Origin: Nocardiopsis endophytica
GTDB taxonomy: Bacteria; Actinomycetota; Actinomycetes; Streptosporangiales; Streptosporangiaceae
Assembly (NCBI RefSeq): GCF_027706725.1
Contig: NZ_JAQFWQ010000059.1
Coordinates: 1 to 43,320, forward strand
DNA: 43,320 bases
Direction of reading: 5' to 3'
Every line of letters begins with the position of its first letter. Position 1 is the first letter of the stretch. The notes below the pieces were generated by a model. The model saw nothing but the letters and a program-made list of their open reading frames with translations. It made no database searches and had not been told where the DNA came from. The position numbers were made by a program, and so were the translations under genes. Positions 2,166-18,544 of this stretch are shown in pieces.

Positions 2166-2236
2166 TGTATTCCCTCTGGTAGAATGTTTCGTTCCGGGTG
2201 TGATGGAGGCTCTCAACCCTGGGAAGGATGAGAGAC

Positions 2237-2557
2237 ATGCCAGCACCGAGGAAGTACCCCGATGAGCTGCGCGAACGCGCCACGAGGATGGCCGTGGAAG
2301 CCCGCCGGGACCCGGCCACCCGGCCCGGAGCGCTCGCCCGTATCGGCAACCAGCTGGGCATCAACCACGAGACGCTGCGCAACTGGGTCACCCAGGCCGA
2401 GATCGACGGCGGCCACAGGCCCGGCACCACCACCGACCAGGCCCAGCGCCTGGCCGAGCTGGAGCGCGAGAACCGGGAGCTGCGCCGGGCCAACGCCATC
2501 CTGAAGTCCGCCTCGGCTTTCTTCGCGGCGGAGCTCGACCGCCCACAGAGCAGGTAG
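2237..2557 (+). CDS. IS3-family transposase OrfA
   Basis: A 106-aa HTH protein starting MPAPRKYPDELRERA. An ATG nine bases upstream (2228) is also in frame, but the GGAAGG stretch at 2222-2227 is better spaced for 2237. The N-terminus is an HTH that recognises the terminal repeats (NHETLRNWVTQAE). The C-terminus is a leucine-zipper-like helix (LAELERENRELRRANAIL) followed by the signature SASAFFAAELDRP. Its stop overlaps the orfB start as TAGTG, and orfB lies in the -1 frame. OrfB could therefore be made by re-initiation, by -1 frameshifting into an OrfAB fusion, or both. Confidence 0.93.
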   Translation: MPAPRKYPDELRERATRMAVEARRDPATRPGALARIGNQLGINHETLRNWVTQAEIDGGHRPGTTTDQAQRLAELERENRELRRANAILKSASAFFAAELDRPQSR

Positions 2558-3471
2558 TGGCCTTCATCGACGCCCACAAGCAGGAATTCGGGGTCGAGCC
2601 GATCTGCGAGGTGCTGCAGGTCGCCCCGTCCACCTACTACGCCGCCCGGGACCGGCCGCCCTCGGCCCGCCAGGTCGCAGACGCGGCCGTGACCGAGGAG
2701 ATCCGCAGGGTCCATGAGGACAACTACGGGGTCTACGGGGTGCGCAAGGTCCACGCCGAACTGAACCGGCAGGGCCGGGCGGTGGCGCGCTGCACCGTGC
2801 ACCGGCTGATGAGGGCGGCCGGGCTGCGCGGGGCCGCCCGCGCCGGGACCCCGCGCACCACCCGGTGCGCACCGGGCCCGGATATGCGGCCGGACCTGGT
2901 CGGACGCGCCTTCGAGGCCTCAGCGCCCGACCGGCTCTGGGTCGCCGACATCACCTACATCCGCACCTCTTCGGGGTGGTGCTATGCGGCCTTCGTCATC
3001 GACGTGTTCTCCCGCCGGGTGGTGGGATGGCAGGTGAGCCGGTCGCTGCACACCGAGCTGGCGCTGGACGCGCTGGAGATGGCGGTATGGAACCGCGAGC
3101 ACGTGGGGCACCGCCTGGACGGGCTGGTCCACCACTCCGACCGCGGGGCGCAGTACCTGGCAGTGCGCTACACCCGCCGCCTGGCCGAGGCGGGGGCCGT
3201 GTGCTCGGTCGGCTCGAGGGGCGACTCCTACGACAACGCTCTGGCCGAGGCGTTCCACTCGCTGTTCAAGGCCGAGCTGGTGCGCAACAAGGGACCCTGG
3301 GCGGGCCTGGAGGAGCTGGAGGTCGCGGTGGCCGAGTACGTGGACTGGTTCAACCACCGCCGGCTGCACGGAGAGATCGGGCTGGTCCCGCCGGCCGAGT
3401 TCGAAGCAGACTTCTACCAGCGGCAAGAGGCCTCACCCGAGGGCGGGGCGTTGCTTCCGAGCCTCCAATAA
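2557..3471 (+). CDS. IS3-family transposase OrfB (DDE integrase core)
   Basis: A 304-aa catalytic subunit starting at the GTG that shares its first base with the orfA stop. An HTH_21-like region (EEIRRVHEDNYGVYGVRKVHAEL, 48-69) precedes an rve integrase core with Asp131 (WVADITYI), Asp195 (HHSDRGAQY) and Glu231 (NALAEAFHS). Thirty-five residues separate the last two, the DD(35)E spacing of IS3. The tail YVDWFNHRRLHGEIGLVPPAEF is family-typical. The frame is intact. Unusually, the stop codon TAA (3469-3471) lies outside the element, in the duplicated target sequence. A shorter diverged copy of this gene follows on the opposite strand. Confidence 0.95.
   Translation: MAFIDAHKQEFGVEPICEVLQVAPSTYYAARDRPPSARQVADAAVTEEIRRVHEDNYGVYGVRKVHAELNRQGRAVARCTVHRLMRAAGLRGAARAGTPRTTRCAPGPDMRPDLVGRAFEASAPDRLWVADITYIRTSSGWCYAAFVIDVFSRRVVGWQVSRSLHTELALDALEMAVWNREHVGHRLDGLVHHSDRGAQYLAVRYTRRLAEAGAVCSVGSRGDSYDNALAEAFHSLFKAELVRNKGPWAGLEELEVAVAEYVDWFNHRRLHGEIGLVPPAEFEADFYQRQEASPEGGALLPSLQ
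3431..3468 (-). repeat. IS3 right terminal inverted repeat
   Basis: Reverse-complement partner of 2128-2165. It lies entirely inside the 3' coding end of orfB, so the last dozen or so residues of the transposase are encoded by the terminal repeat itself. Confidence 0.88.
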
Positions 3472-4020
3472 ACCCGAAACGGAACAGAAGCCTGTTTTAA
3501 ACTCGGTCGGCGGGACCAGGCCGAGTTCTCCGCGCGGGCGGTGGGGTTGACCAGTCCATGTAGTCGGTCACCGTGACTTCCAGATCCTCGATGCCACGCC
3601 AGGTAGCATCTGGCGAAGGTGCGGATGGAGGGGCCCTCTCGCCCGAGGGTGGGCAAGGAGGACATGTCGGCGTCCCGGAGCCGGGCGGGCCTGTCGGCGC
3701 TGAAAGGAGTGAGTGATAAGGCCCGACGGCCTGTCTGGCTCCCGTGCGGCCCCGCCGGATGAGCTGGGCGCGGACGTTGCTCACTCCGTCGACCTGTAGT
3801 TCTCATCGTGTATCCGGGCGATCTCGCGGGTGGCGGCCATTTCCGTGGCCGAACGCGCCGCAGGCGGCCGGTTCTCGGCCGCGTACTTGGGTGGAGGGGG
3901 AGATGCGGCACCCAGCAGACCAGCTCCACCACGTGCTTCTGCTTGTGGGCGTCGATGAAAGCGACTATCCGGTCTGTGGACGATCGAACTCCACCGCGAA
4001 AAAGCCGACTCGGACCCAAG
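3472..4020 (-). pseudogene. Decayed remnant of an older IS3-family element
   Basis: Minus-strand pieces in several frames match the neighbouring IS3 element. From 5' to 3' they are the end of orfA with the orfA/orfB junction (about 4020-3960, followed by VAFIDAHKQ), an HTH piece (TREIARIHDENY, about 3840-3800), a VRAQLIRRGR piece near 3770, and the C-terminal piece GIEDLEVTVTDYMDW...GLVPP-like up to about 3472. The section that would encode the DDE catalytic core is missing, and frameshifts separate the rest, so it cannot encode a transposase. It fills the gap between the intact IS3 element and the stop of the pPIWI-RE gene, marking repeated insertion at the island edge. Confidence 0.8.
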
Positions 4021-4079
4021 GAACGTATTCGCTCTATCAGCATCGTTCGCCGGGGATTCCCCATGCTGGCGGCACTTGC

Positions 4080-6827
4080 TCATGGAGTGGACGGCGGTTT
4101 CCTGCCCTCCTTCGTTCTGGCGACCGGAAGCACGTACTGACCGGCGAGACGTGCCAGGTGCAGTGGGAGGGGGCGGGCGAGAGGCGGGTAGTCGTCGTGG
4201 TAGCGCAGCTGGTGCGCAAGCGTTGCCCACTCCGCCGGTCGGTCGGGCACGTCCCCTTCACGCCCCGAGTCCACCAGCGCCTTCTCCGACAGGCAGCAGA
4301 GCACGGTGATCTCCAACTGTCCAGGGTTCCAGGCCGTCTTTCCTGGAGCTGTCCGCCCCTGTGCCGTGGGAGCCAGCTTCATGAGCCCCTTCGGAAGTTT
4401 CGCCACCGTATGCGGCTTCGAGGCCGTGCTCGCGAAGACACGGCTCTCCACCTCCGGGGTTCCCCACACCCCCTCAGCGAAGCCGACCTTGCCCTTGGTG
4501 TCATGGGCGTACCATTCCGGCACTTCTCCTCGCGCATTGGAGTCCCGTACGAGTACCACCCGCAGGTCGTCGCCGTAGAGCGTGTGACGCTGGGCGGATT
4601 CGGTGCCGAAGCCAAGCATGTCGCGCTCCAGTTCACCATTGCGCAGGGCGGGCCAGCACTGGCGCAGGTTGCCCGCGTCCGCAAGCAGGAGTGTCGGGCG
4701 GTCACGGAGCTGGAAGAGGAGTGCACGGATCTGCCGCTCCGTATCCCGCTGCCAGTGGTGCTCCATGCCCGAGCGTGGAGTAGTCCGAGGCCCGTGCCGA
4801 TCAGCCGCAGCATCGTCGGAGCATCCCGCAGCAGACTTCTCCGCTGGTTCTTCTGCCTGGGAGAGCAGCAACAGCAGTTTCGGGTACGACACCCACTCGG
4901 TGCGCTCGGCGTCCCACCCCTCGATGTCGCCCGGCCCGTCTCCGGGGCGGATCCGCACTGCGACCAGCTGACGGACGGCGCGCCGCATGGGCCCTTTCCT
5001 GGTGCGCTGGATAAGCCAGAGTGCCACGTATTGAAGGTCACCGGGAATTCCGGCTCCTACCCGGTGGGCAGGCGGGGCGATCGCTCCGAGCTGCCGGAAG
5101 GCGTCTAACCAGGTCCACTTGGCCCGATGCTCCAGGCCGCCTTCGTCACCGTCGGGCAGGTTCATGAACTGGCTCAGCCGCCCCTGCCGCGCCCAGGCGA
5201 TGCGCAGCGCGTGCTTGGGGTCGGAGTCCGGCACGGCGGCGAAGCGGTCCTTGTCGGCGATCTCCGTGATCACGAGTCCGGTCTCCTCGGAGCACATGCC
5301 CTTTCGGTCAGCTACGAGTCGGCAGCGTTCCTCAACGGCTTCGGCCAACCGGTCGGCCTTGGGACGCTTGCGATCCCGGGAAATCGGCATGGCGTCGGCC
5401 AGGGGCCCCGCTGCCTGGAGTCGCACGCGGATGCCGATCCCCTCGCACCGCCACTCCCAGGTATCGCCGTCGGCCGCCCCCACTCTCTCTCCCGGAGGGA
5501 GCCCGATGAGTTTCGGTAGTTCCGTCAGCAATGCAGCACGGGTTTCGGGGGATTGCCAGTAGACGTCGACCTCCAGGAGACGGCCGTTCAGCGCGCGCGC
5601 CAGCGCCGCACGCCGTTGCAAGACCAGTTGGGTGTCCCTGACCTCCCGGTCACGACCGGCAGGCAGCAGCGAAGGGGTATTCCTCCGGGTCACCCTGGTG
5701 AGGTCGGGGACTCGCGTCAGCATGGGGCGCAAGCCTTCCTCGACCCAGGCGTCCAGCGCCGCTCGTTCCTGTGGCATCAGCCCGGGGCCGACCTCGTGCG
5801 GGCCGATCGACGGATGGTAGACGATGCCGGCGGCCACATCCCCGGACCCGTTGATCCAGTGTTCTGGACGGGCGAAGAGTTCCGCGGGCTGCGGGTAATT
5901 GCCGACGACGTCAAGTTCGGGCATAAGCGGGGCGGGGCTGTGGCGGCGCCAAGCAAGCTCCTTCAACCGCCGGTCATAGCCGAGAGTGTTCGCCATCAGA
6001 CGGTGGCCCCGGTCCGGGCCTCCCGGCCACGGCAGCGGAACATCGAGCAGGACGGTCGCGCCGCCGAGCTGGTAGGGGGGTACGTCCAGTCGGGTGGCCC
6101 ACCGACGTACCTGGGTGGACACATGGACGCGGAACCGTGGGGCGAAGGGCACGGTGTGGACGGTGATGTTGAGGCAGGCCGAGTAATACCACGTCTGCCC
6201 GCGACGCTCGTACCTCTGAGGCGGCCATGAGACGAGTCGTGCAGCATTCCCCGAGCTCTCGACGCGGAAGTGGAGCACCATGCTCCCGGTGTGGAAGGTC
6301 CGAGCGGCCAGCCGGAAGGCGACCCACTCGGGCAGCAGGCTGTAGAGCCGTGCGGCGGGTTCGGCGGTACCGCCCGCTGATGTCACGGTCTCGGTGAGGT
6401 CGATCGATTCTGCCTCCCACTGTGGCAGCTGAACGGCCTCGGCAGGATCGCCTGAGCGGATCCTCGTCTCCAGGTCGGCGCCTTCAGTGTCGTCCTCGTC
6501 TGGGGACAGGCCCGCAGACCAGGTACCGATCACCGGGCCCAATACCTCCCGCGGGACGGCTTCCCGCGCGTAGAGCCATGGCAGGCGGCCGTCTGTTCCG
6601 GCATTACGGCCGGTCGCCAAGACACCGGGAGCCATCGCCTGAAGCAGGGAGTTGAGCCTGCGTACAGGAAGCCGGTCCGGGCGGACGGCTCCTGTGTGGG
6701 CCTCGGCCTGCATCTTGGTGAGCTCGGTGTGCAGTTTCTCGCCGAGCCGCAGCACTTTCATCTCCTCCCGCCATGGTCCATGGAGAGGATCGGGTTCGTA
6801 GGCTGTGACGCGAATGGTGTGGTACAC
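4080..6827 (-). CDS. pPIWI-RE family protein (prokaryotic PIWI with RNase H fold)
   Basis: A 915-aa protein built like the pPIWI-RE family of Argonaute relatives: an N-terminal X-type module (about 1-330), a central MID-like part, and a C-terminal RNase H-fold PIWI domain (about 690-905). Family-like signatures are LRIAWARQGRLSQF (Arg547 and Arg550 are candidates for the conserved R), LLLADAGNLRQCW (Asp717, where the first RNase H acid should be), LRVVLVRDSN (Asp762), NPGQLEI (Glu839, candidate conserved E) and the ending HQLRYHDDY...RPLPLHLARLAGQYVLP. Members are predicted to bind guide/target nucleic acids in defence against plasmids and phages, working with a helicase and a nuclease encoded nearby. 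Here it is the last gene of the operon, 31 bp after the helicase stop. Which catalytic acids are functional needs an alignment. Confidence 0.85.
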   Translation of the reverse strand: MYHTIRVTAYEPDPLHGPWREEMKVLRLGEKLHTELTKMQAEAHTGAVRPDRLPVRRLNSLLQAMAPGVLATGRNAGTDGRLPWLYAREAVPREVLGPVIGTWSAGLSPDEDDTEGADLETRIRSGDPAEAVQLPQWEAESIDLTETVTSAGGTAEPAARLYSLLPEWVAFRLAARTFHTGSMVLHFRVESSGNAARLVSWPPQRYERRGQTWYYSACLNITVHTVPFAPRFRVHVSTQVRRWATRLDVPPYQLGGATVLLDVPLPWPGGPDRGHRLMANTLGYDRRLKELAWRRHSPAPLMPELDVVGNYPQPAELFARPEHWINGSGDVAAGIVYHPSIGPHEVGPGLMPQERAALDAWVEEGLRPMLTRVPDLTRVTRRNTPSLLPAGRDREVRDTQLVLQRRAALARALNGRLLEVDVYWQSPETRAALLTELPKLIGLPPGERVGAADGDTWEWRCEGIGIRVRLQAAGPLADAMPISRDRKRPKADRLAEAVEERCRLVADRKGMCSEETGLVITEIADKDRFAAVPDSDPKHALRIAWARQGRLSQFMNLPDGDEGGLEHRAKWTWLDAFRQLGAIAPPAHRVGAGIPGDLQYVALWLIQRTRKGPMRRAVRQLVAVRIRPGDGPGDIEGWDAERTEWVSYPKLLLLLSQAEEPAEKSAAGCSDDAAADRHGPRTTPRSGMEHHWQRDTERQIRALLFQLRDRPTLLLADAGNLRQCWPALRNGELERDMLGFGTESAQRHTLYGDDLRVVLVRDSNARGEVPEWYAHDTKGKVGFAEGVWGTPEVESRVFASTASKPHTVAKLPKGLMKLAPTAQGRTAPGKTAWNPGQLEITVLCCLSEKALVDSGREGDVPDRPAEWATLAHQLRYHDDYPPLARPLPLHLARLAGQYVLPVARTKEGRKPPSTP

Positions 6828-6858
6828 GGCATTGCCTCCTGGAACTCGGAGTTCGCGC

Positions 6859-9800
6859 TTATGAGTGGTCCGGAGCGGGGGCAGAGGAGAGCAAGCGGGT
6901 GATCATGCGCCAGAACGGTTCGTACAGGGCGCGGACGATGAACTGCTCCTCCGTGCTTTTCGTGTCACCGTCGAAGTAGGGGGCCAGCACGTCGAGCACG
7001 CTGTGCAGCAGGCTGGATGCGGGGGTGTCGGTCCGTGGCGGTACAGCCCCGCGGTTCGGAGCGAAGGCGGCATCGACGAAGACCACCCGGGCCGGTACGC
7101 CGCCACGCACCAGCCGCCCGATCACCTGCCACATCAGGACCAGCGTGTCCCAAGTGACCTGCTCCCGCGCCTCGTCGCCGAGGCGACTCCACGCCATCGA
7201 ACGGGCGAGCACCTGGTACCAGCGTGAACGGGCGAGGCGGTGGACCTCTTGGGCACCTTCCTCGAGAGTCGCCTGCCCCTGTACCCAGGTGTCGAAGTCA
7301 CCGCCGGTGACGGCACGGACGATCCAGTCGTTGACGCTGTGGACGGCAAGAGTCAGGTCTTCGGGGTGCGGATTCGGCCGTGCTAGAAAGTAGACCGTGC
7401 CGATGGCCGCCTCGTCGTCGTTGTTGAGGATGTTGTGGCCCCGCTCGACGGCCAGCAGAGGCGCCACGAGGATGTCCGCCTCGAGGTCCTTGAGGTGCTC
7501 CACGTCGCCTCGGCGAAGTGACCGGGCGCGGTAGGCGGACGGTGCTTCGTCCTCCGGTGCGATCTCCTCATCGTCCGAGACCAGGCACAGCACCTTGTCG
7601 CGCCAACGGGAGTTGAGGTTGTGCAGGGTGTCGGCCACGATGCGCGCTTCGGAGTAACTGCCGACCAGCAGAAGGATCTGATCGCGGTTCCCCGCAGGAA
7701 GGGAGAGTAGCTCGCGCTCCAGCGGGCCCCCTTCGAGAGCGTCGTATCCACCTTGTCCTAGGTGGATGGCAATGCGACGTAGTTTTTCGGGGCGGTCGTC
7801 CGGGCGCGAGCCTGACAGACGCATCTTCTCATCGCCGTCGTTGATGAACTCGAAGCGCATAAGGCTCTCGTCTGCGATGCGTTTGGTCACTTCGGCCGGC
7901 GGCTCGATGATCACACCGACCGGAACGCAGACGTGGTAGCGGGTCGACGCGCCCGCCCAACTGCTGCCGGACATGAGCAATAGGTGGGAGCCAGGCCTGT
8001 CGTCCACGGAGGCGAGGTGGGGGATGGCGCGCAGCAGCTCACGTCCGACGCCGCTGCAGCGGAAGAAGGTCAGCTCGCCGCTGCAGACTCCGCCCTCGTC
8101 TTCGCCCGGGACCCGGAACTGGAAGCCGAGCACATTGCCCATCGGAGCCTCCGGCACCATCGGACCGTAGTCGAGCGGCCGACGGTACATCTCGTTGTAG
8201 CCCAGACTGAGGGCAGCCTCGACACGGGGCCACATGGCGTTGATCATGGCGAGCCGGGGCTCGAGGGCACTTAGGAGCAGCGTGAACTCGAAGCGCTCGG
8301 CGAGCTTCTGCCTCCACTCCTCAGGGCTCTCAGGCGGCGGCTTGGGCTTCCGGCGTCGACCGCGCTTCTTCTGCCGTTCCTCCTCGCGCTCCCACTCGTC
8401 GTACTGTTCCTCGTACTTCTGCTTCCGCTCGGCCATGTACTGCGCATCGATATGGAAGACCTCGTCCATGACCTCGGTCAGGTGGCGCTGGGTGTTTTCC
8501 GGGTTGCCGGTGTGGAGAAGTTCGTTGAGGACGGCAGTCAGTCGACTGAAGTCCTCCTCAGATCTGCGGCTGCGGTCGCCGAAAGGGTTGTCACGGAAGG
8601 CGTCGAGGAGCTTTCCGAGGGCTTCCCGGGGGGCGTGGTTCCGGTGTTCCGGCCCACTGCCGTCGGGAAGGTCGTAGCGTTCGTCAAGCAAGCCGAGTTG
8701 GAGCGTCCATGCGCTGAAGTAGCCCGTCCGCACCCAGCTGCGTAGCTCGGGCCCGGCGACAAGCATCGCGTACAGCCGGTCGGTGGCCGATCCAGCGGTG
8801 TTGAGTGCGGCGGCGAAGGTCTCCACGTCCCGCTCGGAGAGCTGGGTGCGTCCGCTCGCCGCGAGCTCTCGGATCTTGTGGCGGCTGAGCTGGTCGATGA
8901 GCCCCTTGTCCTCGTTGCTGGCGAGGACGACGGCGGGGGCGAAGGTCCGGTCGAGCTGCATCTGCACGCGGTCGGCCTCATCTATGATCACAAGGTCGCT
9001 GCGGCGGCAAGCGAGTTCGAGGTAGCGGATACGCTCGCCGTTCTGAGGGCGGGGCGGCGAGGTGTCGATCAGGCTGGCAGGTGTGGCCACCCAGATCAGG
9101 GCGCCGACCAGGGCACGAGCTCCGTGGTGCCGGGGGCAGGCGGACCAGTACGGGCAGCTCGTCACACGCTTCTGCCATTCGGAGGCATGTCCGTCGCCCC
9201 TGCGGCGCTGCGGGTCCGACGGTGGCCGGAGCCGTGAGCAGGGGGCCTCGCCGAAGGCGAGCGGCCCAGTGGACGAAGTGGCGCCCTGCCTCTTGGTGTT
9301 GAGGACGCAGGAAGTCCCGAGGTAGGCGAAGTCGGGGTCGTCGTGGGCGAGCAGACGGTGCTCGCCCCGGCCCGCCAGCCGGCGGTGCAGTCGCTGGGCG
9401 TGCCGCTCCCGGCCGGAGGAGCCGAGTACGGGCGCGGCGACGTCGTCGATATAGCGGTTGTAGAGCCGTACGAGCTTCAGTACCTCTGCGACGTCTGTGA
9501 CCACGATGGTGGTGCGTTGGCCGAGCTTCGCGAGATGGACGGCGATGATGTCGCGCAGTGTGCTCTTGCCCACGCCGACGATGCCGAGCAGGTGCTGGAT
9601 CCCGTCCACTGTGAACGTGAAGTCGTCGTTCTTGCCAGCTTTGTGGAACCCACCGTTCTCCTTGGTGGAGAGGTCGAAGGCCCGCAGCCGATCAAGCCAG
9701 TTCTTCAGGTCTTCCTTGCCGACGCGTGCGTCCGTAGCGTCCATCTCCGACGCGGTGCGCTCGAGTTCCTTCCTGGTGAAAACGAGGGGCTCTCCGCCAC

Positions 9801-10368
9801 CGGCCGGTTCGAGGTCCAGGTCGTGGGCAACAAGGGCGGTGCGGGGAACGGACGGCAGGTCAACGACGGCCATGGTTCGGCTGACGGGGAAGGCATGTGG
9901 GCCCTCGCCCGCGACCGGCATGCGTGTGCCCGCCAGCGGTGGTGCGGCACGTAGCAGTTGCTCGTAGACGGAGAAGCGGTCGTTCGCGACAGAGAGTTCG
10001 CGGCGGACGGAGGGCGTCTCGGTGTCCGGTACGTCATAGCCGCGCACCAGGGGATCAAACTGTTGGTAGGTCTCCAGTGCCTCGCGCCAGGGGCGGCTCC
10101 TGCGGAGAGTCCACAGCGAGTATCTGGCCACACGCAGCGTCTCTGCGGTATCCGGTGGCAGTGGCGTTCCGGACGCTGTGGCGAACTCGTATCCGCTGAA
10201 CAACACCCAGGCGCTGCCCGCAGGGCTGCCCGGGAGCAGCTTCTCCTGGAGGTAGAGGCCGAGTTCCACCTGGCAGAAGGTCTCCAAGACAGGCTGGCGC
10301 ACAGACGACCCCAGGGTCGCCTGGAGGGCGTGGAGTACGTCGGTCAGCGGCGGAATGATGCTACGCAT
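6859..10368 (-). CDS. DinG/XPD-type Fe-S helicase of the pPIWI-RE island
   Basis: A 1169-aa superfamily 2 helicase. Residues 1-240 are an extra N-terminal region, probably the pPIWI-RE island-specific module. Walker A is GIVGVGKST (262-270) and the DEAD box lies in LVIIDEADRV (463-466). Between them are four cysteines, C354, C377, C405 and C411, placed as in the 4Fe-4S domain of XPD/DinG helicases. Motif VI is QVIGRLVRGG (from 1081). A lysine/arginine-rich charged insertion (about 680-710) splits the C-terminal half. The likely role is ATP-driven unwinding of DNA or RNA-DNA hybrids for the PIWI partner. The start overlaps the upstream stop by 8 bp, so translation is probably coupled. Confidence 0.87.
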   Translation of the reverse strand: MRSIIPPLTDVLHALQATLGSSVRQPVLETFCQVELGLYLQEKLLPGSPAGSAWVLFSGYEFATASGTPLPPDTAETLRVARYSLWTLRRSRPWREALETYQQFDPLVRGYDVPDTETPSVRRELSVANDRFSVYEQLLRAAPPLAGTRMPVAGEGPHAFPVSRTMAVVDLPSVPRTALVAHDLDLEPAGGGEPLVFTRKELERTASEMDATDARVGKEDLKNWLDRLRAFDLSTKENGGFHKAGKNDDFTFTVDGIQHLLGIVGVGKSTLRDIIAVHLAKLGQRTTIVVTDVAEVLKLVRLYNRYIDDVAAPVLGSSGRERHAQRLHRRLAGRGEHRLLAHDDPDFAYLGTSCVLNTKRQGATSSTGPLAFGEAPCSRLRPPSDPQRRRGDGHASEWQKRVTSCPYWSACPRHHGARALVGALIWVATPASLIDTSPPRPQNGERIRYLELACRRSDLVIIDEADRVQMQLDRTFAPAVVLASNEDKGLIDQLSRHKIRELAASGRTQLSERDVETFAAALNTAGSATDRLYAMLVAGPELRSWVRTGYFSAWTLQLGLLDERYDLPDGSGPEHRNHAPREALGKLLDAFRDNPFGDRSRRSEEDFSRLTAVLNELLHTGNPENTQRHLTEVMDEVFHIDAQYMAERKQKYEEQYDEWEREEERQKKRGRRRKPKPPPESPEEWRQKLAERFEFTLLLSALEPRLAMINAMWPRVEAALSLGYNEMYRRPLDYGPMVPEAPMGNVLGFQFRVPGEDEGGVCSGELTFFRCSGVGRELLRAIPHLASVDDRPGSHLLLMSGSSWAGASTRYHVCVPVGVIIEPPAEVTKRIADESLMRFEFINDGDEKMRLSGSRPDDRPEKLRRIAIHLGQGGYDALEGGPLERELLSLPAGNRDQILLLVGSYSEARIVADTLHNLNSRWRDKVLCLVSDDEEIAPEDEAPSAYRARSLRRGDVEHLKDLEADILVAPLLAVERGHNILNNDDEAAIGTVYFLARPNPHPEDLTLAVHSVNDWIVRAVTGGDFDTWVQGQATLEEGAQEVHRLARSRWYQVLARSMAWSRLGDEAREQVTWDTLVLMWQVIGRLVRGGVPARVVFVDAAFAPNRGAVPPRTDTPASSLLHSVLDVLAPYFDGDTKSTEEQFIVRALYEPFWRMITRLLSSAPAPDHS

Positions 10369-11506
10369 CGTCCATCTCCTCTCTCCGGGTCCGTTCTAAT
10401 CCGGGCACGAGGTCCACGGGTGTCGTGAGCACCAGGCGGTCCCGCAGGAGCGGAGGAAGGGCCTCGGTGAAGGCCTCCCGGTAACCGTTGCTCCCGGCGA
10501 GCTCTTCAGGGACCACGACGAAGGTGAGGTCCGGTAGGGGGGCACCGTCAGCGAGATATGCGGCGAGAAGGGCCGGCTGAAGGCGGTCGTGCACCTGGAT
10601 GTCCGCGACCCTGCTACCGGTGTCCGTCAACCGGCAGGCGGACAGAGTCTGCGGCAGGGCCTCGCGGATGATCCCGGCGCGATCCAGTACGTCCCCAACA
10701 GCCTGTTCGGTCCGGTGTGGGAGTGCGAGGAACGTCCGCAGCGATCGCCGCAGGATCCGGGCCTGGTTCGGCTCGCGGACCAGTTCTGGAGAGGCATCAC
10801 GGGGGCAGTTCTCCCCCTCGCACCAGATGACCTCGTTGGTGGAGGACGGCCCGGGTAAAGGCGTGGTCCCGTTCCGAGGCAGCGCGGGGAGTCCGCACGA
10901 AGGGCAGCGGAGGAAGTGGCCGTCGACGAGCAGGTGTTCAGGTAGTGGTCCGTAGAGATCCTTGACCCGCGTCCAGACATCCCTGTTCCAGCCGGGCTCG
11001 AAGCGGTCCTGCTGGTGGACCACCGGGCGGTGGGCCAGGAACCTGCGGCATTGTAGGAAACGCGCACGTATTCCACACCGCGCTTCCAATTCGCTCAGGA
11101 GCGCGCGGGCCTGCGCTGCTTCGCCACCATCCAATCCGTGCGAGGCGACTTCGAGGCACGTCCGGGTCGGCATCTGGCCGGCCGGATGGACCAGCGTCGC
11201 ATCCGAGGTGACTAGGGAGGCTGGAACTGCGAACAGCGGATCACCCGCCGGCCGGGTCCGGCACCACCCCCACAGCTCCGGGAGGCTCCTCGGCGGTGTC
11301 TCTCCGACGTCGAGGCAGTGGATCACCGTGCGGTCAAGTGCACGCTGGGCGAGGTCGGGATAGGGCAGGGAGAACGAGCGGAGGCCCTGAACCTCGGAGA
11401 GGGCCGCCACCATGCGGGCCAGCTCTTGGAACAGCTCGCTGCCAACGCCCTCTGAGGCCGCCCCAGTACCCGTACAACCGGCCCGCTGGGCCGCCTGAGT
11501 CTTCAT
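10361..11506 (-). CDS. pPIWI-RE island zinc-ribbon / REase-like protein
   Basis: A 381-aa protein starting at the ATG that overlaps the upstream stop (ATGA). Residues 1-190 are an all-helical region without a motif I can name, probably the island's Y-type module. A zinc ribbon follows: C201-x2-C204 (LRCPSCG) with C229 and C234 (WCEGENC). The C-terminus (285-370) has the layout of the island's restriction-endonuclease domain, including RVADIQVHD (299-307), FVVVPEEL and the closing LVLTTPVDLV. In that layout a D-x-K motif is expected; here it reads D302-I-Q304, so the lysine appears replaced. The upstream catalytic acid is also not evident. It may be an inactive, structural member of the family. 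Domain naming is from family knowledge and is less certain than for the PIWI and helicase genes. Confidence 0.68.
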   Translation of the reverse strand: MKTQAAQRAGCTGTGAASEGVGSELFQELARMVAALSEVQGLRSFSLPYPDLAQRALDRTVIHCLDVGETPPRSLPELWGWCRTRPAGDPLFAVPASLVTSDATLVHPAGQMPTRTCLEVASHGLDGGEAAQARALLSELEARCGIRARFLQCRRFLAHRPVVHQQDRFEPGWNRDVWTRVKDLYGPLPEHLLVDGHFLRCPSCGLPALPRNGTTPLPGPSSTNEVIWCEGENCPRDASPELVREPNQARILRRSLRTFLALPHRTEQAVGDVLDRAGIIREALPQTLSACRLTDTGSRVADIQVHDRLQPALLAAYLADGAPLPDLTFVVVPEELAGSNGYREAFTEALPPLLRDRLVLTTPVDLVPGLERTRREEMDDA

Positions 11507-13065
11507 GCCATAGCCCTTCCGGCGGGCGACGCGGAGCACCAGCGGGTCACCTCGCACCGTTTGCAGGCGCGTCCGGGTACAGCCGCGTAGTGGTCGTCCC
11601 TGTGCCAGTCGGCCACCATGGTCCGCAGAACCTCCTCCGCTGCTGTTCGGTTAGCGGAGGCGAAGGGGTCAATGGTCTCCAGATCGGCACCGCCAGGGCG
11701 CAGTATTTCCAGCTCGACCCGGGCACGGGACAGAGCGCCCGCCAAGTCGCCACGGGCGACCAGTACGACCGCCAGGGCCAGTTGGGGATAGAGCTCCAGT
11801 AAAGGGCGGTTGACGCGCCGGTCGGTGGCGGAGGTCTTGGTCTCGCGCCACACCCATGAGCCTGCGTCTCGGTAGAGCAGGTCGGGTGCGGCGATCACCA
11901 CCACGTTGGCGGCAGTGTCGTGCCGCACGACCCGGGGCTCGGTCCGCACGTCGGACCCATTCCCGACGCACCGCAGCGGGCAGACTGCGGCGTGCCGCCG
12001 CAATAGGAGTGCGCCGAGCGCGCGTTCGTGGTCGGGAAGGTCGAATCCGTCCGGCACCCAATTCTCGGGAACCTCGACCGTGCATGGTCGAGGCGTTCTA
12101 CGGCGGTGCCGGTCGGCGAGGTAGGCATGGAGGGCTCGGCCGCGCTCGGCCGCTCCTTCGCGCTCGACGGAGTCGGCCGTGGGCAGGTGGAGCCGGCGCA
12201 TGTGATCGCGGGCCGGACAAGTCTGGTAGTTGCGTCCGTTGGTCACCGACCAGGTGCGGCGGGGCCGATCCGGTGCCTCGATGCCCAGCAACCCGGACGC
12301 CTTCCGCAGAGCCGGGCAGACCGCCAGATAGGGGCATCCGCCGCAAGCGGAACCGGGCCGGTACTCCCGTCCGTCCAGAACGCCGCCCAGAGCGTCGGGG
12401 CCGTGCTCGCGATACCGGGCGAGTGCTTGTGCCCGGCTGCCGGCGAAGAGCTCTCGCGTGTGTCCGTCGAGCAGCGCGAACTCCACGATTCGCACGTGTT
12501 CCGGTGGCGGTCCGGGGGTGCCCTCGGCCAGCACCAGGCAAACAGCGGCGGTGAACCCGAGGGGCGGCAGGTCTCCGTTCAGTCGGTGCACGGGCAATCG
12601 AAGTTCACGGTAGGAGCCGTCGGCTGAAGCCAGGCAGCGGCCCCACGCGGTGAAGCGGTACTCCCTGGCGTTTCGCGAGTCGTGGCCGGGCAGCCGGTAG
12701 CGGTAGGTCCACGGCTCGGGGACCTCATGCAGGGGGCGGTCCGGGTCGGAGGGGAAGGCCGCCTCGTACATCTTCAGACCATGGTCCGACCAGGTCTTCA
12801 AGCCGTCGTGCAGGGGCGCGTTCCTCTTCCGGGAGGGGCTTGCGGTAGGGCTGGATCGGGTGTCGCAGGCGGTCATGAAAGGGCCGAGGGCGAAGTGCTC
12901 CAACTGCTCTGGGCTGCGCGGCGTCGGAGCGGCGGTGCGGTAGCCGCGGGCCTTGAGAGCGTCAGCGGCGGGGCAGCGGAATTCTCTTCCCTTGAACATT
13001 CCTGCGGATACCGTGATGATCTCAGAGGTGCGGGTCACCCCGTCGGGGGGCAGCCACTGTGACAT
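11503..13065 (-). CDS. RecB/Cas4/AddB-like PD-(D/E)XK nuclease with Fe-S cysteines
   Basis: A 520-aa protein from the ATG at 13065 (MSQWLPPDG), which has GGAG seven bases upstream; an in-frame ATG at 13077 adds four residues. The C-terminal half is a RecB-type nuclease: GRALHAYL (His313), PDLLYRD (Asp395), WRETKTS (Glu408, Lys410) and the YPQLALA helix (Gln428). Its Fe-S staple is C283 plus C501-x2-C504-x5-C510, the arrangement of AddB, Cas4 and Dna2. The N-terminal half repeats the cysteine pattern (C31, then C241-x2-C244-x5-C250) but has no clear catalytic triad, suggesting an inactive duplicate. It would cut or trim DNA ends. It is the first gene of the four-gene operon and is not part of the classic three-gene pPIWI-RE island. 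Confidence 0.8.
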   Translation of the reverse strand: MSQWLPPDGVTRTSEIITVSAGMFKGREFRCPAADALKARGYRTAAPTPRSPEQLEHFALGPFMTACDTRSSPTASPSRKRNAPLHDGLKTWSDHGLKMYEAAFPSDPDRPLHEVPEPWTYRYRLPGHDSRNAREYRFTAWGRCLASADGSYRELRLPVHRLNGDLPPLGFTAAVCLVLAEGTPGPPPEHVRIVEFALLDGHTRELFAGSRAQALARYREHGPDALGGVLDGREYRPGSACGGCPYLAVCPALRKASGLLGIEAPDRPRRTWSVTNGRNYQTCPARDHMRRLHLPTADSVEREGAAERGRALHAYLADRHRRRTPRPCTVEVPENWVPDGFDLPDHERALGALLLRRHAAVCPLRCVGNGSDVRTEPRVVRHDTAANVVVIAAPDLLYRDAGSWVWRETKTSATDRRVNRPLLELYPQLALAVVLVARGDLAGALSRARVELEILRPGGADLETIDPFASANRTAAEEVLRTMVADWHRDDHYAAVPGRACKRCEVTRWCSASPAGRAMA

Positions 13066-13098
13066 ATTCTGCTCCATTTCTATACGGAGGACAGAAGG
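13066..13098. promoter_or_regulatory. 33-bp divergent start region (nuclease operon / kinase)
   Basis: Only 33 bp separate the nuclease start (13065, minus) from the kinase start (13099, plus). The gap holds GGAGG at 13086-13090 for the kinase and GGAG for the nuclease, plus a TCTATA/TATAGA hexamer at 13079-13084 that could act as a minus-strand -10 box. The promoters must overlap each other or lie inside the opposite gene, so the two transcription units are likely co-regulated. No operator repeat is visible. Confidence 0.4.
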
Positions 13099-14007
13099 GT
13101 GAACGTGAAGGAGATCGAGGAGATCGGCGATGTGGAGGAGCGCTATGAACTGCTGGGCATGGTCGGTGACGGCGGCCAGGGCGACCTCTTCCTCGGTCGT
13201 GACGTCAGGAGTGGGGTGAAGAGGGCGCTGAAGCTTCAGAAGCCCCGGAATCTCGGTCCGGAGAGCGAATTTTTCTCAGCGGGAAGGGACCTGCTCGAAG
13301 AAGGCTCGCGCATGATGAGGCTGACCGGTATAAGGGCGATCCCTGAAATCATCGCGACTGGCACGTACCGGCGGCGCCGATGCCTGGTCATGGAATTCGT
13401 TGAAGGGCGTCAACTGCAGGATGTGCTGTTGGCGGCTCGGCCTGTCAGGTACCCCGGGACCGTTGCATCCGTCATCGGTCAGTTGTGTGAAATTCTGCGG
13501 GAAGTACACGACAGGAATCTGGTGCACTGTGACCTCAAACCCGAGAATGTCATTGTGCAACCGGATGGTTGCCTCCGTCTCATCGATATGGGCTTCGCGG
13601 TGATGGAGGGTGAGGCGACGGAGTTCGAACGCGGCACGCTCGGCTGGGCCTCCCCTGAGCAGTCCGACGCATGTCCCTCAGGTCTGACGCGGCGGGTGGA
13701 TATCTTCGGGCTCGGCTGCATCCTGCTCGAAATGACAGTCATGCGGCTGCCCTATGGCGGATTGGAGGAGCGGGCGGAACGGGGCTGCCCGGTTCTGCCG
13801 GCCGACCTCCTCGACAAACTCCCTCCGGAGTTCGCCTCCCTCGCGCTGCGGATGGTCCGGTGGGAACCGGATGAACGTCCGGCGGATGTCCACGAGGTGT
13901 TCGACCAGCTTCGCCCGTACCTTCCTCCGATAAGCTCGCGGCGTCCGTCGAAGCCCCTGCGCCCCGACCCGACCGAGTACTATCGCACGCGTCCGCCTCG
14001 GATGTGA
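13099..14007 (+). CDS. Hanks-type serine/threonine protein kinase
   Basis: A 302-aa cytosolic kinase with no membrane segment and no sensor domain. It shows a glycine loop GDGGQGD (24-30), the ATP-anchoring Lys45 (RALKLQ), the catalytic loop HCDLKPEN (143-150, Asp145), a metal-binding DMG (163-165) in place of DFG, and GTLGWASPEQ (179-188) for the APE segment. HCD instead of HRD makes it a non-RD kinase, a class usually not controlled by activation-loop phosphorylation. The last 35 residues are proline/arginine-rich and may form a tail. It starts at a GTG with GGAGG eight bases upstream. It diverges from the pPIWI-RE operon and converges on the STAND gene 30 bp away. Targets are unknown; a regulatory or toxic role in the island is an inference. 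Confidence 0.9.
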   Translation: MNVKEIEEIGDVEERYELLGMVGDGGQGDLFLGRDVRSGVKRALKLQKPRNLGPESEFFSAGRDLLEEGSRMMRLTGIRAIPEIIATGTYRRRRCLVMEFVEGRQLQDVLLAARPVRYPGTVASVIGQLCEILREVHDRNLVHCDLKPENVIVQPDGCLRLIDMGFAVMEGEATEFERGTLGWASPEQSDACPSGLTRRVDIFGLGCILLEMTVMRLPYGGLEERAERGCPVLPADLLDKLPPEFASLALRMVRWEPDERPADVHEVFDQLRPYLPPISSRRPSKPLRPDPTEYYRTRPPRM

Positions 14008-14037: not shown

Positions 14038-16788
14038 TCACCTCAGTCCTTCCAGCAACTCCCGGACCTCGGATACGCCTTCGCCCCCCATCAACTCACG
14101 CAGCACGATGACTCTCTCCAGTTCCCGTATCGCCTCTTCGGTTCTGCCGGCGGACACCAGGACGTCGGCGAAGAGCCGCCGTGTCTTGTTCTCGCTGGGC
14201 CAGTTCTCCTGTTCGTGGTAGATGTCGCAGGCCTGTCGGTACAGGGATACGGCCTCGTCTCGCTCGGAGCGGGCCACATGCACCTTGGCCAAAGTAAACA
14301 GCACGTCGGCCAGACCGCTCCGCTCTGCCGTGCACCCAAGTACACCCAGGGCATCGGTGCACCGGAGAAGGGCCTGATCGTGATCACCCCTATCAAGGTG
14401 GATTGTGCCGAGGGCGTTCAGCGCTGCGGCCTCTCCAACCGGGTCGGCCACCGCCCTGCACAACTCCAGAGCCTGGCACAGTTCTTTCTCCGCGCCCGCC
14501 TGGTCCCCCTGCTTGCGCAGAGTGATACCGAGCCGGTGGAGCGACCGAGCCAGGCTCAATCGGCCTTTCGTGCTGCGGTCCTCCTTGCTGAGCCGCACGG
14601 CCTGGCGCAGGTGGCCCACGGTCAAGTTGTACTGCCCGTACCGCCATTGGGTTCCTGCCAGCATTCGTTGGACCATGGCGCAATCGACCGAGGTAGCGAT
14701 GGACTCTGCTGCATCGGCGGCGTCTTTGAGGTTATTCAGCGCGTCACGAAGACGGTGGCGGTGCCATTGATAGGTGACCAGTGCCATGGAGAGGAGCCAT
14801 ACGTACCTTTCGATGTGCTGATCTGTGGCTAATCGGATGCCTCGCTGGATGGCTTCGTACTCCTCGTCCAAGAACGCCATCGCCTGCCCCGGTTCCGCGG
14901 GCTCGGTGACCGTGACTCCGTCGGGCTCGCCGATGGGCAGGGTTCGCTCTCGGTCGAGCACGCGGTCGCAGGCGCGGACGTTGTGCAACTGGTGTTCCAG
15001 CACCTGCCGTACGGTCGCCCGCTTGATTTCGGCCGTCTCGTCCTCCGACCCAGGCTGCACGTGTTGGCGGACGAATGCCCGTACCAGGTCGTGGAGCCCA
15101 TAGCGATCGCCCTTGAGCTCCACCAGGTTCGCCGCCACGAGTTCCACCAGAGCACGGTCAGTGCGCGCCCCTTCGCACGCTGCCCTCCCGAGGTCCATCA
15201 CCGCCTCCCAGGAGGCGGTGGGGCCAGGGTGGATTGAAAGCTGCCAAAGCAGCAGCCTGGCCTCCTTACTGAGTACGCGCACGGAGCAGTTAAGCGCGGC
15301 ACGGACCGACAGTTCGTGCTCAGGAAGGTGCAGCGTATCCAGCTTTGCCCGTTCCCCCTTCATCTCCCGTACCAGGGCGGAGATGGTACGCAGCGGACGT
15401 GCACCACGCTTCAGAAGCTGGGCCACCACGGTGAGGGCCAGTGGCAGACGATCGCAAAGACCAACCAACTCTCTGAATGCCTGGGCGTAGTTCGCCCGGT
15501 CTTTGGCCGATACTTCTTCCTGTAGCAGCTTCAGGGCGTCCGACTCTGGCAGTGGCTCCATCCTGTGGAACAGCACCTTTCTCTCGGCCTGAAGGCGCAA
15601 GAGATCGTTGCGACTGGTGATGATCACGGCGCAGGTGCCGTCTCCAGGGAGAAGCGGCAAGACCTGCTGGGCGTGGAGCGCGTCGTCGAGGACGATGAGT
15701 ACCGAGCGGCGAGCAAGTGCAGACCGCAGGGCAGCGCTTTTGCTCTCCGGGCCGGTCACTGTGGAGTAGGGCGGTAGCGCGGCCAGGAACTTGTCCAGGG
15801 CCTCGCCCGGTTCGGTAGGCCCCTCAGCTCCGTCGGTGAATCCGTTCAGGTCGGAATAGAGTACTCCGTCTGGGAATCGTGTCCGGAGTCGACAGGCGAG
15901 ACGGTGGGCCACCGTGCTCTTCCCGACCCCTGCCATGCCGCTGATGAGGAGCAGCGCCAGGTTTCCGGCGTCCTGTTCCCCACACACGGCTTCGAAGAGG
16001 TCACGGATGAGCTGCTCCTGCCCGACCGGCCTTCGTATGCCGCCAGGCAACTGGTCAGGCACAGGAGGAGGGAACACCCCGCCCGGTCCGCAGGAGGATC
16101 CCCGGGCCACTTCGATGGCGCTCTGCACTTCGGCGTCCGGACTTCCGTTGCGCTGCCTCCACTCTTCGATGAGTCGTTCCCGCTCACGCTCAGGCAAGTC
16201 GCCGTGGGCGAGCAGGTAGAACCGGAAGACCGGGGGCAGATTCGGGTCGCGCTTGAACCATTTCTCCGTCTCCTCGCGGAGCCACTTCACCTCCCGGGAC
16301 CGCCAGGCGGCCTCGAGCCTGGCGTACACGGCGGCCATCAATTCGGTCCGCAGCTCCTCCCGGCGCAGCTGGAAGCCGCTCCCGCTCAGGTCGCGCAGCG
16401 GTTCGCCACCGTCCCACTCGTCCAGGGCCTCACCCAGTAGATCGAATCGCTCGTGATGGTTCATCAGCCTTGTGGCCCTCGTGACCCGGTCGCGGAAGCG
16501 GAGTAGATCGACGCGGTCCACCGGTACGCGGATCGTGCAGTATCCCGATCTGCCCTGGGGTACAACCTCCCGACCCAGTTGTTTCCGCAGGTCGGAGATG
16601 GTGCGGTCCACCAGGCGGCCTGCGTTCTCATTGCCTTCCCACAAGGCTTCGGCGATTTCCCCCCTGGTGCACCGGCAGTCCGGTGACGTCACCAGAAGCG
16701 CGAACAGTGCGGCCGCTTTCGCCCCCTCGGAGACCCTTCCGCCGCCGTCCCCTTCGGCTCTGACCGGGCCCAGCACGTGTCCCTCCAT
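14038..16788 (-). CDS. STAND ATPase: winged helix-BTAD-NB-ARC-TPR (AfsR/SARP-like)
   Basis: A 916-aa protein. Residues 1-95 form an OmpR/PhoB-like winged helix (CTRGEIAEALW...VDRTISDLRKQLG), 96-225 a BTAD-type helical domain, and about 250-560 an NB-ARC ATPase with Walker A GMAGVGKST (284-292), Walker B VLIVLDDA (363-370) and the sensor strand VIITSR (388-393). About 700-910 are TPR repeats (for example ALNALGTIHLDRGDHDQALL). AfsR-type proteins of this design are DNA-binding regulators switched by ATP and phosphorylation. The same NB-ARC/TPR core also occurs in STAND defence sensors. A GGGGAGGG stretch lies just upstream of the ATG. The convergent kinase makes a kinase-regulator pair like AfsK-AfsR plausible, but this is inferred from position only. 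Confidence 0.85.
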   Translation of the reverse strand: MEGHVLGPVRAEGDGGGRVSEGAKAAALFALLVTSPDCRCTRGEIAEALWEGNENAGRLVDRTISDLRKQLGREVVPQGRSGYCTIRVPVDRVDLLRFRDRVTRATRLMNHHERFDLLGEALDEWDGGEPLRDLSGSGFQLRREELRTELMAAVYARLEAAWRSREVKWLREETEKWFKRDPNLPPVFRFYLLAHGDLPERERERLIEEWRQRNGSPDAEVQSAIEVARGSSCGPGGVFPPPVPDQLPGGIRRPVGQEQLIRDLFEAVCGEQDAGNLALLLISGMAGVGKSTVAHRLACRLRTRFPDGVLYSDLNGFTDGAEGPTEPGEALDKFLAALPPYSTVTGPESKSAALRSALARRSVLIVLDDALHAQQVLPLLPGDGTCAVIITSRNDLLRLQAERKVLFHRMEPLPESDALKLLQEEVSAKDRANYAQAFRELVGLCDRLPLALTVVAQLLKRGARPLRTISALVREMKGERAKLDTLHLPEHELSVRAALNCSVRVLSKEARLLLWQLSIHPGPTASWEAVMDLGRAACEGARTDRALVELVAANLVELKGDRYGLHDLVRAFVRQHVQPGSEDETAEIKRATVRQVLEHQLHNVRACDRVLDRERTLPIGEPDGVTVTEPAEPGQAMAFLDEEYEAIQRGIRLATDQHIERYVWLLSMALVTYQWHRHRLRDALNNLKDAADAAESIATSVDCAMVQRMLAGTQWRYGQYNLTVGHLRQAVRLSKEDRSTKGRLSLARSLHRLGITLRKQGDQAGAEKELCQALELCRAVADPVGEAAALNALGTIHLDRGDHDQALLRCTDALGVLGCTAERSGLADVLFTLAKVHVARSERDEAVSLYRQACDIYHEQENWPSENKTRRLFADVLVSAGRTEEAIRELERVIVLRELMGGEGVSEVRELLEGLR

Positions 16789-17032
16789 CGCCCTCCCCTT
16801 CTCCGTGATGGAAGCAGCGGTCCGGCCCCGTGATGACAGCCCCTTCGAGCGTGCGCCGAGGAAGGCCGCTTCACGTGCGCGTACTCCTACACGCGTTCAA
16901 GGCTCAGTTTTCCCTCAGTTTTCGCCCTGCAGGCCGCTCTCGACTCGGGCACGATGGCACCACCCGCTCGCAGAAGCAGAATACTGCGGCGGAACCATTC
17001 AACGACCCATCTGGAAGGAACTACAGGTCCTG

Positions 17033-17486: not shown

Positions 17487-18272
17487 ATGCAGCCACGATC
17501 TAGCAGCGTGTTCGCCTCGGTGAGGCGGCACTTCGACGATCCCCGGGTCGGCGGCGCGGTCGTCCTGACCGTTCCTGCGGCCAGCGAGGGGGCGGAGCCG
17601 CTCGGGCTAACCGCTGCCGAGGCGCACGCGGCGCTGTACGGGCAGGGCTCCGACCCGCAGTTCGCCGTCGCGGTCTGGAAGGAGGTTCTCCGCGCCGCTC
17701 TGGGGGACGACGCTTCAAACGCTTCAGATGAGACCGGGAAGCTCCTTGTGATCTGGCTGGCACTGCCTCGCTTGACCGGGACGGTCCACCGCGTCTGCAC
17801 GCGTCTGCACGCCGACCGGTCGGATGTGGAGGCTGAGATGGTCCTCACTCTCCTGGAGGAGTTGTCGGCCCCGGACGCCGGGAGCTGCCTCTCAGATCGC
17901 TCCCTGATCCGCGCGGCGTGTACTAGGGCGTGGAACTTCGCCCGTGACGGCCATCGGGAGCTCCCCTCCACTCAGGTCGAGCGCATCGCCCAAGATCACG
18001 CGCTCACCGCGTCCGATGGGGAGGTGGACGCTCCGGCCGAGAAGGGTTGGGACGTGCGGGTTGACCGTCCGGACGGCCCGGACGGGTTGCGCACCCCGCT
18101 GCGCTTCCGGGTGCGCCCGGAGTATCTGCGGAATGCTGCCTTCACCGACACCGACACCGACACCGACGACGAGACGAGGGAGCGCCTAACGCGCCACAAT
18201 CCCCCCAAGAAACGACCGCCCGGGCGCCGTGTGGGCCCCCGACCGGTCCGCCCCGCTGGGAGGCGAGCATGA
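17487..18272 (+). CDS. Hypothetical protein of the integrative-element type
   Basis: A 261-aa protein with GGGAGG ten bases before the ATG. The N-terminal 170 residues are helical and soluble (KLLVIWLALPRLTGTVHRVC, then DVEAEMVLTLLEELSA). The tail is low-complexity, with a (Thr-Asp)4 run encoded by four ACCGAC repeats and then a proline/arginine-rich basic end. I do not recognise a family. Proteins of this general look sit just before excisionase genes in actinobacterial integrative elements. Its stop overlaps the next start (ATGA), so it is translated with the excisionase-like gene. Function unknown. Confidence 0.7.
   Translation: MQPRSSSVFASVRRHFDDPRVGGAVVLTVPAASEGAEPLGLTAAEAHAALYGQGSDPQFAVAVWKEVLRAALGDDASNASDETGKLLVIWLALPRLTGTVHRVCTRLHADRSDVEAEMVLTLLEELSAPDAGSCLSDRSLIRAACTRAWNFARDGHRELPSTQVERIAQDHALTASDGEVDAPAEKGWDVRVDRPDGPDGLRTPLRFRVRPEYLRNAAFTDTDTDTDDETRERLTRHNPPKKRPPGRRVGPRPVRPAGRRA
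18144..18167 (+). repeat. In-frame ACCGAC x4 microsatellite
   Basis: Four perfect tandem hexamers encoding Thr-Asp repeats near the end of the 261-aa protein. The repeat is in frame, so copy-number slippage would change linker length without breaking the gene. Confidence 0.85.
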
Positions 18273-18544
18273 ATTACCCCGCGGAGGGTGGAATGACCTT
18301 CACCGAGATGTTCAAGCTGCCCGTCACAGTGGACCTGCGGACGGCGGCCCGAGTGCTCGGGATCAGCTCGACGGCCGCCTACCGGTTGATCCACAAGGGG
18401 GAGTTCCCCTGCCCTGTCCTCCGTGTCGGAGGCAGGTACAGGATTCCGACCAGCGGGCTGATGCACGCCCTCGGGATCGAGGATCGCCCAGTGTACAGCG
18501 TGGACCTGGAAACGGACGCATACACGTCGGAGGCTTGCTTCTGA
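18269..18544 (+). CDS. Excisionase-family helix-turn-helix protein
   Basis: A 91-aa DNA-binding protein of the HTH_17/MerR-like excisionase type: DLRTAARVLGISSTAAYRLIHKGEF is the helix-turn-helix and PVLRVGGRYRIPTSGLMHALGI the wing and following helix. The start overlaps the previous stop (ATGA) and has GGGAGG six bases upstream. A second ATG at 18293 also has a good GGAGG. Such proteins bend DNA at attachment sites to direct integrase toward excision and are normally followed by an integrase gene. None follows here, so this looks like the stranded end of an integrative element. A transcriptional regulator role is the alternative. Confidence 0.82.
   Translation: MNYPAEGGMTFTEMFKLPVTVDLRTAARVLGISSTAAYRLIHKGEFPCPVLRVGGRYRIPTSGLMHALGIEDRPVYSVDLETDAYTSEACF

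Follow-up and report, generated by a model that had tools for sequence, protein, structure and literature searches.

We asked whether a row of four genes in a 43,320-nucleotide stretch of DNA from Nocardiopsis endophytica (contig NZ_JAQFWQ010000059.1; this whole stretch is called the window below) encodes a pPIWI-RE restriction island expanded by one nuclease, as an original prediction made from the sequence had proposed, or a system of another kind. The genes encode a tandem PD-(D/E)XK nuclease (NUC), a protein with a restriction endonuclease (REase)-fold domain (RE), a DinG-type helicase and a pPIWI-RE protein (PIWI). Beside them lie genes for a Ser/Thr protein kinase and an AfsR-like regulator, both of which the prediction had missed. 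Judged by its sequence, the locus would be a six-gene, regulated, restriction-dead actinobacterial variant of pPIWI-RE (Ppr), most likely serving immunity against mobile DNA, a reading to which we give about the same chance of being right as of being wrong.

The four-gene core and its nuclease sites

The four-gene minus-strand operon was confirmed. NUC, RE, DinG and PIWI are consecutive in an operon-like row, in which the RE start codon (ATG at 11506) overlaps the NUC stop codon by 4 bp (ATGA), DinG overlaps RE by 8 bp and 31 bp separate PIWI from DinG; the overlaps and the gap are those that had been predicted. The pPIWI-RE domains that had been expected were found with Pfam, namely pPIWI_RE_X (353 bits), RNaseH_pPIWI_RE (259 bits) and MID_pPIWI_RE (88 bits) in PIWI, pPIWI_RE_Z (159 bits) in DinG and pPIWI_RE_Y (135 bits) in RE, except that pPIWI_RE_REase reached only 20.2 bits against a cut-off of 26.1. 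NUC matched PDDEXK_1 (84.6 bits); it is called here as 524 amino acids, and the 520 amino acids given previously correspond to an inner ATG. Each protein also matched its own model in PADLOC-DB 2.0.0 (PprPIWI 1258, PprDinG 1017, PprPDDEXK 682 and PprRE 368 bits). These scores and the recurring gene order exclude chance for the four-gene core and, as there is one model per operon protein, the core is already catalogued.

Relatives were collected from 84,980 species genomes by a DinG survey, in which the best 80 of 268 relatives (L089-L168) together with the window make 81 loci; because they were ranked by likeness to the window, close kin of the window are over-represented. Of these loci 80/81 have NUC, which is absent from L168; the contig of L111 holds the NUC end only. 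The prediction was right that a RecB/Cas4-type nuclease accompanies the island, beyond the three-gene neighbourhood of PMC3702460 (available in part), but its view of NUC as an addition that makes an expanded variant does not hold given the existing PprPDDEXK model and this distribution, by which NUC belongs to the core in the surveyed loci. Because of the PADLOC model we also rejected NUC as a novelty in such islands.

The prediction took RE as an active part, and here the sequence speaks against it. Relatives carry the REase site WPxxDAYDLR...DVKD, where the window has IQVHD, so that DxK has become QxH (Q304 and H306). DxK is found in none of the 33 RE proteins of the window's clade, compared to 47/48 in the other DinG-survey loci, 46 of which keep all four REase-site residues that were looked at (L136 and L161 deviate), and in all seven RE proteins from triads that have no NUC (7/7). 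Misalignment was rejected as an explanation, since the flanking residues align and the domain is missing altogether in six relatives. Judged by these residues, the RE nuclease site is destroyed in the window. In the six loci without the domain (L278, L279, L282, L284, L285 and L286) RE stops shortly behind the zinc ribbon and only 65-133 bp remain before the DinG match; in another, L269, RE is dead by substitution. The PIWI gene of L279 is in three pieces.

RE itself is nevertheless kept, with its nuclease part under weaker constraint, because its reading frames remain open and the median ratio of non-synonymous to synonymous substitution rates, computed among eleven near relatives, is 0.42 for the dead REase domain, higher than in the Y domain (0.24) or NUC (0.21). 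The zinc-ribbon cysteines C201, C204 and C229 of RE are invariant in 49 aligned rows.

In PIWI, R761, E839 and the strand-4 aspartate D717 are present and the strand-1 position is non-acidic (Q607). Across the PIWI proteins of the clade (n = 33) the strand-4 aspartate occurs in 19/33, and all 33 have R or Q at the strand-1 position; this uniformly non-acidic position makes cleavage by PIWI unlikely, and PIWI probably binds guides without cutting, provided that the strand mapping is correct. Only a subset of pPIWI-RE proteins retains the catalytic residues (PMC3702460). The PIWI-RE protein of P. stutzeri does cut, requires two aspartates for this, and uses RNA guides on single-stranded DNA targets (PMC10991935, available in part). 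The DinG motifs are intact in the window, and C354, C377, C405 and C411 are invariant in an 11-row alignment.

In NUC, the site of the C-terminal half is intact (D399, E412 and K414), while the N-terminal half is degenerate. Each half carries one set of cysteines (C35/C245/C248/C254 and C287/C505/C508/C514), all invariant in a 55-row alignment. The arrangement of the C-terminal half, with D, ExK, one cysteine upstream and three downstream, is one that we take to be that of Cas4/AddB-type nucleases, and the cysteines of NUC and DinG presumably hold Fe-S clusters. The two halves align locally (hhalign 83.5%, E 8e-6, from one comparison) and poorly over their whole length (11.8% in a global alignment); the local similarity suggests that the N-terminal half is a degenerate duplicate. 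In the NUC proteins of pPIWI-RE loci that we compared, D, ExK and all eight cysteines are retained in 61/61, which makes NUC the likely effector; in relatives outside such loci, E and K are retained in 13/21. The PADLOC Cas4 model was matched by 10/55 NUC members at E<=0.001. Searching the sequences of solved structures with NUC, RE and PIWI gave no match of note, and neither an AddA partner nor Cas1/Cas2 was present among the window proteins scanned, which are a part of its open reading frames.

The NUC family is wider than the pPIWI-RE island. It occurs in 31/394 genomes of the class at E<=0.001 (27 strong matches), compared to 17/394 for RNaseH_pPIWI_RE (16 over cut-off), and the two lie in the same place in seven. 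Around 20 of the 27 strong NUC matches, no RE, DinG or PIWI was detected by profile in the stretch fetched, and the genomes concerned have no RNaseH_pPIWI_RE match over cut-off (one, G215, has a sub-cut-off match with stops on another contig). Confinement of NUC to pPIWI-RE loci was thus rejected. The association on which the prediction had staked its case therefore stands in one half only: the nuclease is often found elsewhere (20/27), yet within the loci its D, E and K are always kept (61/61). No NUC match was found in 50,697 phage records. After two plasmid relatives of NUC (L169 6689-10260 and L170 6434-10136) come a hypothetical gene and, in divergent orientation, one for an ImmA/IrrE metallopeptidase; the NUC relative in L169 also adjoins an EcoRI-like methyltransferase gene and a DUF262 gene. 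In L067-L069 and L071-L074 a gene for a single-domain RecB-like nuclease precedes a non-pPIWI-RE NUC relative in the same direction, and the pair is possibly a two-nuclease unit.

The kinase, the regulator and the loss of RE

If RE no longer cuts, what accompanies its loss? The kinase gene is divergent from NUC, with 21 bp between the start codons, and a divergent kinase lies upstream in 32/33 clade loci (in L111 the contig ends before it) and in 24/48 others. The regulator is present in 32/33 clade loci and in 0/48 others, by a profile search of both flanks. The two genes are convergent and lie -116 to +50 bp apart in 31/31 loci (30 bp in the window), a spacing so tight that a terminator would scarcely fit between them. 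In the clade, 0/33 loci have a type-I-like N6 methyltransferase whose end is specificity-like, compared to 25/48 of the others; kinase and methyltransferase occur together in 21/48.

Could the kinase and the regulator be unrelated neighbours, for instance parts of a biosynthetic gene cluster? Both types are abundant in actinomycetes, and the window genome alone has 40 kinase and 12 regulator-like matches. However, both occur in 32/32 testable clade loci, which span 11 named genera, and they follow co-inherited branches. In a FastTree tree, the 32 clade kinases fall on one starred branch when compared to 29 other kinases of the window genome and 24 from the other loci, and 52/56 adjacent divergent kinases lie on one side of the tree. 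The flanks of the loci are mostly unshared, with a shared flanking gene in only 19/105 pairs of 15 representative loci, so that the kinase/regulator block is more than conserved synteny. On the kinase tree and the flanks we rejected the kinase as a chance neighbour, and by the same sequence comparisons it is inherited together with the operon; that the pair is unrelated to the operon is scarcely credible.

As the DinG survey favours kin of the window, we turned to a second sample that was not selected by likeness to it, namely the pPIWI_RE_Y matches in the family (52 of 341 genomes) and in the phylum (6 of 396 genomes). These gave 53 stretches (L250-L302), with about 10 contigs already in the first set. 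Regulator and kinase occur together in nine, and RE is dead in three of these and ends after the zinc ribbon in six; two of the nine are repeats (L266 = L089 and L277 = L113). In the other 44 loci DxK was seen by eye in 43/44, the exception being L276, which lies on the contig of L111 and is dead. L052 and L269 form a second DinG lineage apart from the window's clade. In both, RE is dead, a kinase is present, the AfsR-like gene lies downstream of PIWI (its front is beyond the stretch in L269) and no methyltransferase was found. A single clade for all dead-RE rows was rejected (p value of the AU test 9.5e-5, at a cost of 109.65 log-likelihood units, on a quick DinG tree with a simple model). 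In total there are 32 + 6 + 2 = 40 distinct loci with regulator and kinase; RE is lost in 40/40 and a related methyltransferase is present in 0/40.

The regulator matches BTAD (29.3 bits), NB-ARC (51.7 bits) and TPR_12 (66.3 bits) over cut-off and Trans_reg_C just below it (24.5 against 26.2 bits). With 225.8 bits against a cut-off of 1430 it is not an equivalog of AfsR in NCBIfam. Upstream of it lies a direct repeat with an 11-bp period, a candidate regulator site by its likeness to the afs box, and the exact repeat recurs in 15/31 clade relatives (L096 was missed through the called start and L089 lies at a contig end). AfsR binds direct repeats of 11 bp and is phosphorylated by AfsK, the product of a gene in the same cluster (PMC10936776, available in part). 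The scan for promoters and terminators gave signals no more frequent than in shuffled sequence, and no shared motif was evident by eye between the kinase and NUC starts. Features of the locus are collected in Table 1.

Table 1. Genes and sites of the pPIWI-RE locus and its surroundings (window coordinates)
Feature	Position	Strand	Description
pPIWI-RE protein	4080-6827	-	915 aa; X, MID, RNaseH; PADLOC PprPIWI
DinG-type helicase	6859-10368	-	1169 aa; Z domain, Walker A GVGKST, DEAD box, 4 Cys; PADLOC PprDinG
RE protein	10361-11506	-	381 aa; helical Y domain, zinc ribbon, REase-fold domain; PADLOC PprRE
RE Q304 and H306 codons	10589-10597	-	positions of D and K in relatives' DxK
NUC	11503-13077	-	524 aa; tandem PD-(D/E)XK; PADLOC PprPDDEXK
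Ser/Thr protein kinase	13099-14007	+	302 aa; divergent from NUC
AfsR-like regulator	14038-16788	-	916 aa; SARP-type DNA-binding/BTAD, NB-ARC, TPR
Direct repeat AACTGAG-N4-AACTGAG	16903-16920	-	11-bp period; upstream of regulator; afs-box-like
Overlapping gene pair	17487-18544	+	261 aa without Pfam match and 91 aa HTH_17; divergent from regulator

The overlapping gene pair is conserved in 19/80 surveyed loci (L090-L107 and L120), that is, in the nearest relatives only, and is accessory; beside it lies a conserved intergenic stretch of ~700 bp with a GC-rich hairpin. Downstream of PIWI there is an IS3-type transposase pair (2228-3471, plus strand), and Rfam detected its ALIL frameshift pseudoknot (RF01497, 88.9 bits, 2515-2628) and nothing else over the whole window. 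A more distant NUC-RE-DinG arrangement, with DinG and PIWI divergent, was seen in L280, L281, L283, L287 and L289-L295; in four of these loci an AfsR-like gene lies upstream at a distance of at least ~4 kb, and there is no upstream kinase. Among RE-intact four-gene loci, twelve (L124-L130, L135, L138-L140 and L146, at ~3300-6950) have a conserved divergent trio of ~297, 374 and 503 amino acids; the L138 copies have no Pfam match, and the Cys-rich tail of the 374-amino-acid protein looks nuclease-like by eye. Two further four-gene loci have a defence-island-like setting, adjoining a Wadjet JetA-like gene in L155 (3700-6542) and a phage-type integrase gene in L134 (5380-6876).

Proposed mechanism and alternatives

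On this anatomy, which is solid, we propose a mechanism inferred from the sequences. Infection or DNA stress would be signalled to the NB-ARC/TPR regulator, the kinase, or both, and the kinase would phosphorylate the regulator as AfsK does AfsR. The regulator may then bind the 11-bp repeats and raise its own transcription; read-through past the opposed kinase gene could perhaps also raise the nuclease operon on the same strand, although this is only an idea. PIWI, probably non-cutting, would hold a guide or a DNA:RNA hybrid, DinG would unwind the guide-bound nucleic acid or hybrid, and NUC, which alone among the PD-(D/E)XK proteins of the operon has a complete site, would degrade the exposed strand. 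RE would be retained as a non-catalytic adaptor with its helical domain and zinc ribbon, and a methyltransferase that marks self would be unneeded because RE is non-catalytic. More broadly, and with somewhat less than even confidence, we suggest that PIWI immunity includes a separate class, with two or more independent origins, in which the logic of restriction-modification was traded for kinase/STAND signalling with a dead or domain-deleted RE adaptor. In the same tentative proposal, the kinase and a STAND-type AfsR-like sensor would switch on PIWI, the Fe-S helicase and the tandem Fe-S nuclease.

Several observations weigh against this scheme. The assignment of the PIWI strands is our own mapping, and the kinase could target PIWI, DinG or NUC instead of the regulator. 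The exact repeat is found in just 15/31 clade relatives, and about one match to the three-mismatch pattern is expected by chance (mean 1.04). An AfsR-like gene occurs with an intact RE and without a kinase in L283, L290, L293 and L294, where NUC is present, and in the NUC-less triad L297, so that the regulator alone does not track RE loss. The tie between an active RE and the methyltransferase is loose, since in 20/48 RE-competent loci both kinase and methyltransferase are missing from the flank that was fetched (two of the 20, L133 and L168, are cut or disrupted) and motif IV is odd in several methyltransferases. Finally, the 40 loci represent about two events, as the combination perhaps arose only twice.

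Does RE loss nevertheless leave room for classical RNA-dependent restriction, in which a DNA-RNA hybrid is recognised by PIWI and opened by DinG and the REase cuts the incoming foreign DNA, with NUC as an accessory? The core genes and their order are alike, this mode of action was proposed in PMC3702460, and it may hold for the RE-intact relatives with their DxK in 47/48. For the window it is very improbable, as DxK is found in 0/33 RE proteins of the clade and six relatives have no REase domain. We also consider it rather unlikely that NUC is not the effector but produces or trims the guides of PIWI, a role that the prediction had suggested from the parallel with Cas4 or AddAB. A PIWI protein needs guides, the P. 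stutzeri protein uses RNA guides on single-stranded DNA (PMC10991935), and NUC has an Fe-S-type PD-(D/E)XK fold with weak Cas4 similarity in 10/55 members. The clade operon would then, however, be left with no other plausible intact nuclease site, and the NUC-less triads would require another source of guides. A module for DNA repair or replication instead of immunity would be consistent with the DinG- and RecB-type parts, with the absence of NUC from the 50,697 phage records, and with the higher sensitivity to ciprofloxacin after deletion of the P. stutzeri PIWI-RE gene (PMC10991935). The patchy presence (52/341 family genomes), the differing flanks and the methyltransferase partners in relatives argue against such a function, which we regard as improbable.

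If regulated, restriction-dead immunity is the correct reading, a PIWI effector would be tied to eukaryote-like kinase/STAND signalling in bacteria, and RE would be shown to have a non-cutting role, since its catalysis and even its domain can be lost. NUC would be the first protein to test. The pPIWI-RE family is among the least studied of the PIWI families in the literature we searched, where it appears in the 2013 description, an enzyme study and a passing mention.

Comparison with known systems

The variant with regulator, kinase and dead RE seems undescribed, as no description was found in the literature searched. There we found no paper for the PADLOC Ppr model names, none that joins PIWI-RE or Ppr with PADLOC, and none that joins SARP, STAND or kinase with phage defense (in those exact words). 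The Ppr models of PADLOC-DB 2.0.0 match all four operon proteins (368-1258 bits) but neither the kinase and the regulator nor the methyltransferases of relatives. The three-gene island of Burroughs, Iyer and Aravind (2013) has the REase gene first and, in the available part of its description (PMC3702460), no associated methylase gene. The window shares with this island RE (Y, zinc ribbon and REase fold), the DinG-like helicase with Z, PIWI with X, MID and RNaseH, the gene order and the close or overlapping genes, but differs in NUC before RE, in the dead REase site and in the adjacent kinase and AfsR-like regulator.

The C-terminal half of NUC shares D, ExK and four cysteines around the fold with Cas4/AddB-type nucleases, while its degenerate N-terminal half, with four cysteines of its own, is extra. 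The kinase is mad6-like (138 bits in PADLOC), a likeness to MADS and BREX/Pgl that extends in related loci to the N6 methyltransferase with a specificity-like end; the full gene set of these systems was not found among the window proteins scanned, where weak matches of the mad1/mad2 level were the only others. With AfsK-AfsR of Streptomyces the locus shares a Ser/Thr kinase gene beside that of a SARP-NOD-TPR regulator and 11-bp direct repeats upstream (PMC10936776). In contrast to that pair, the regulator of the window lies far below the equivalog cut-off and is linked to a nuclease operon.

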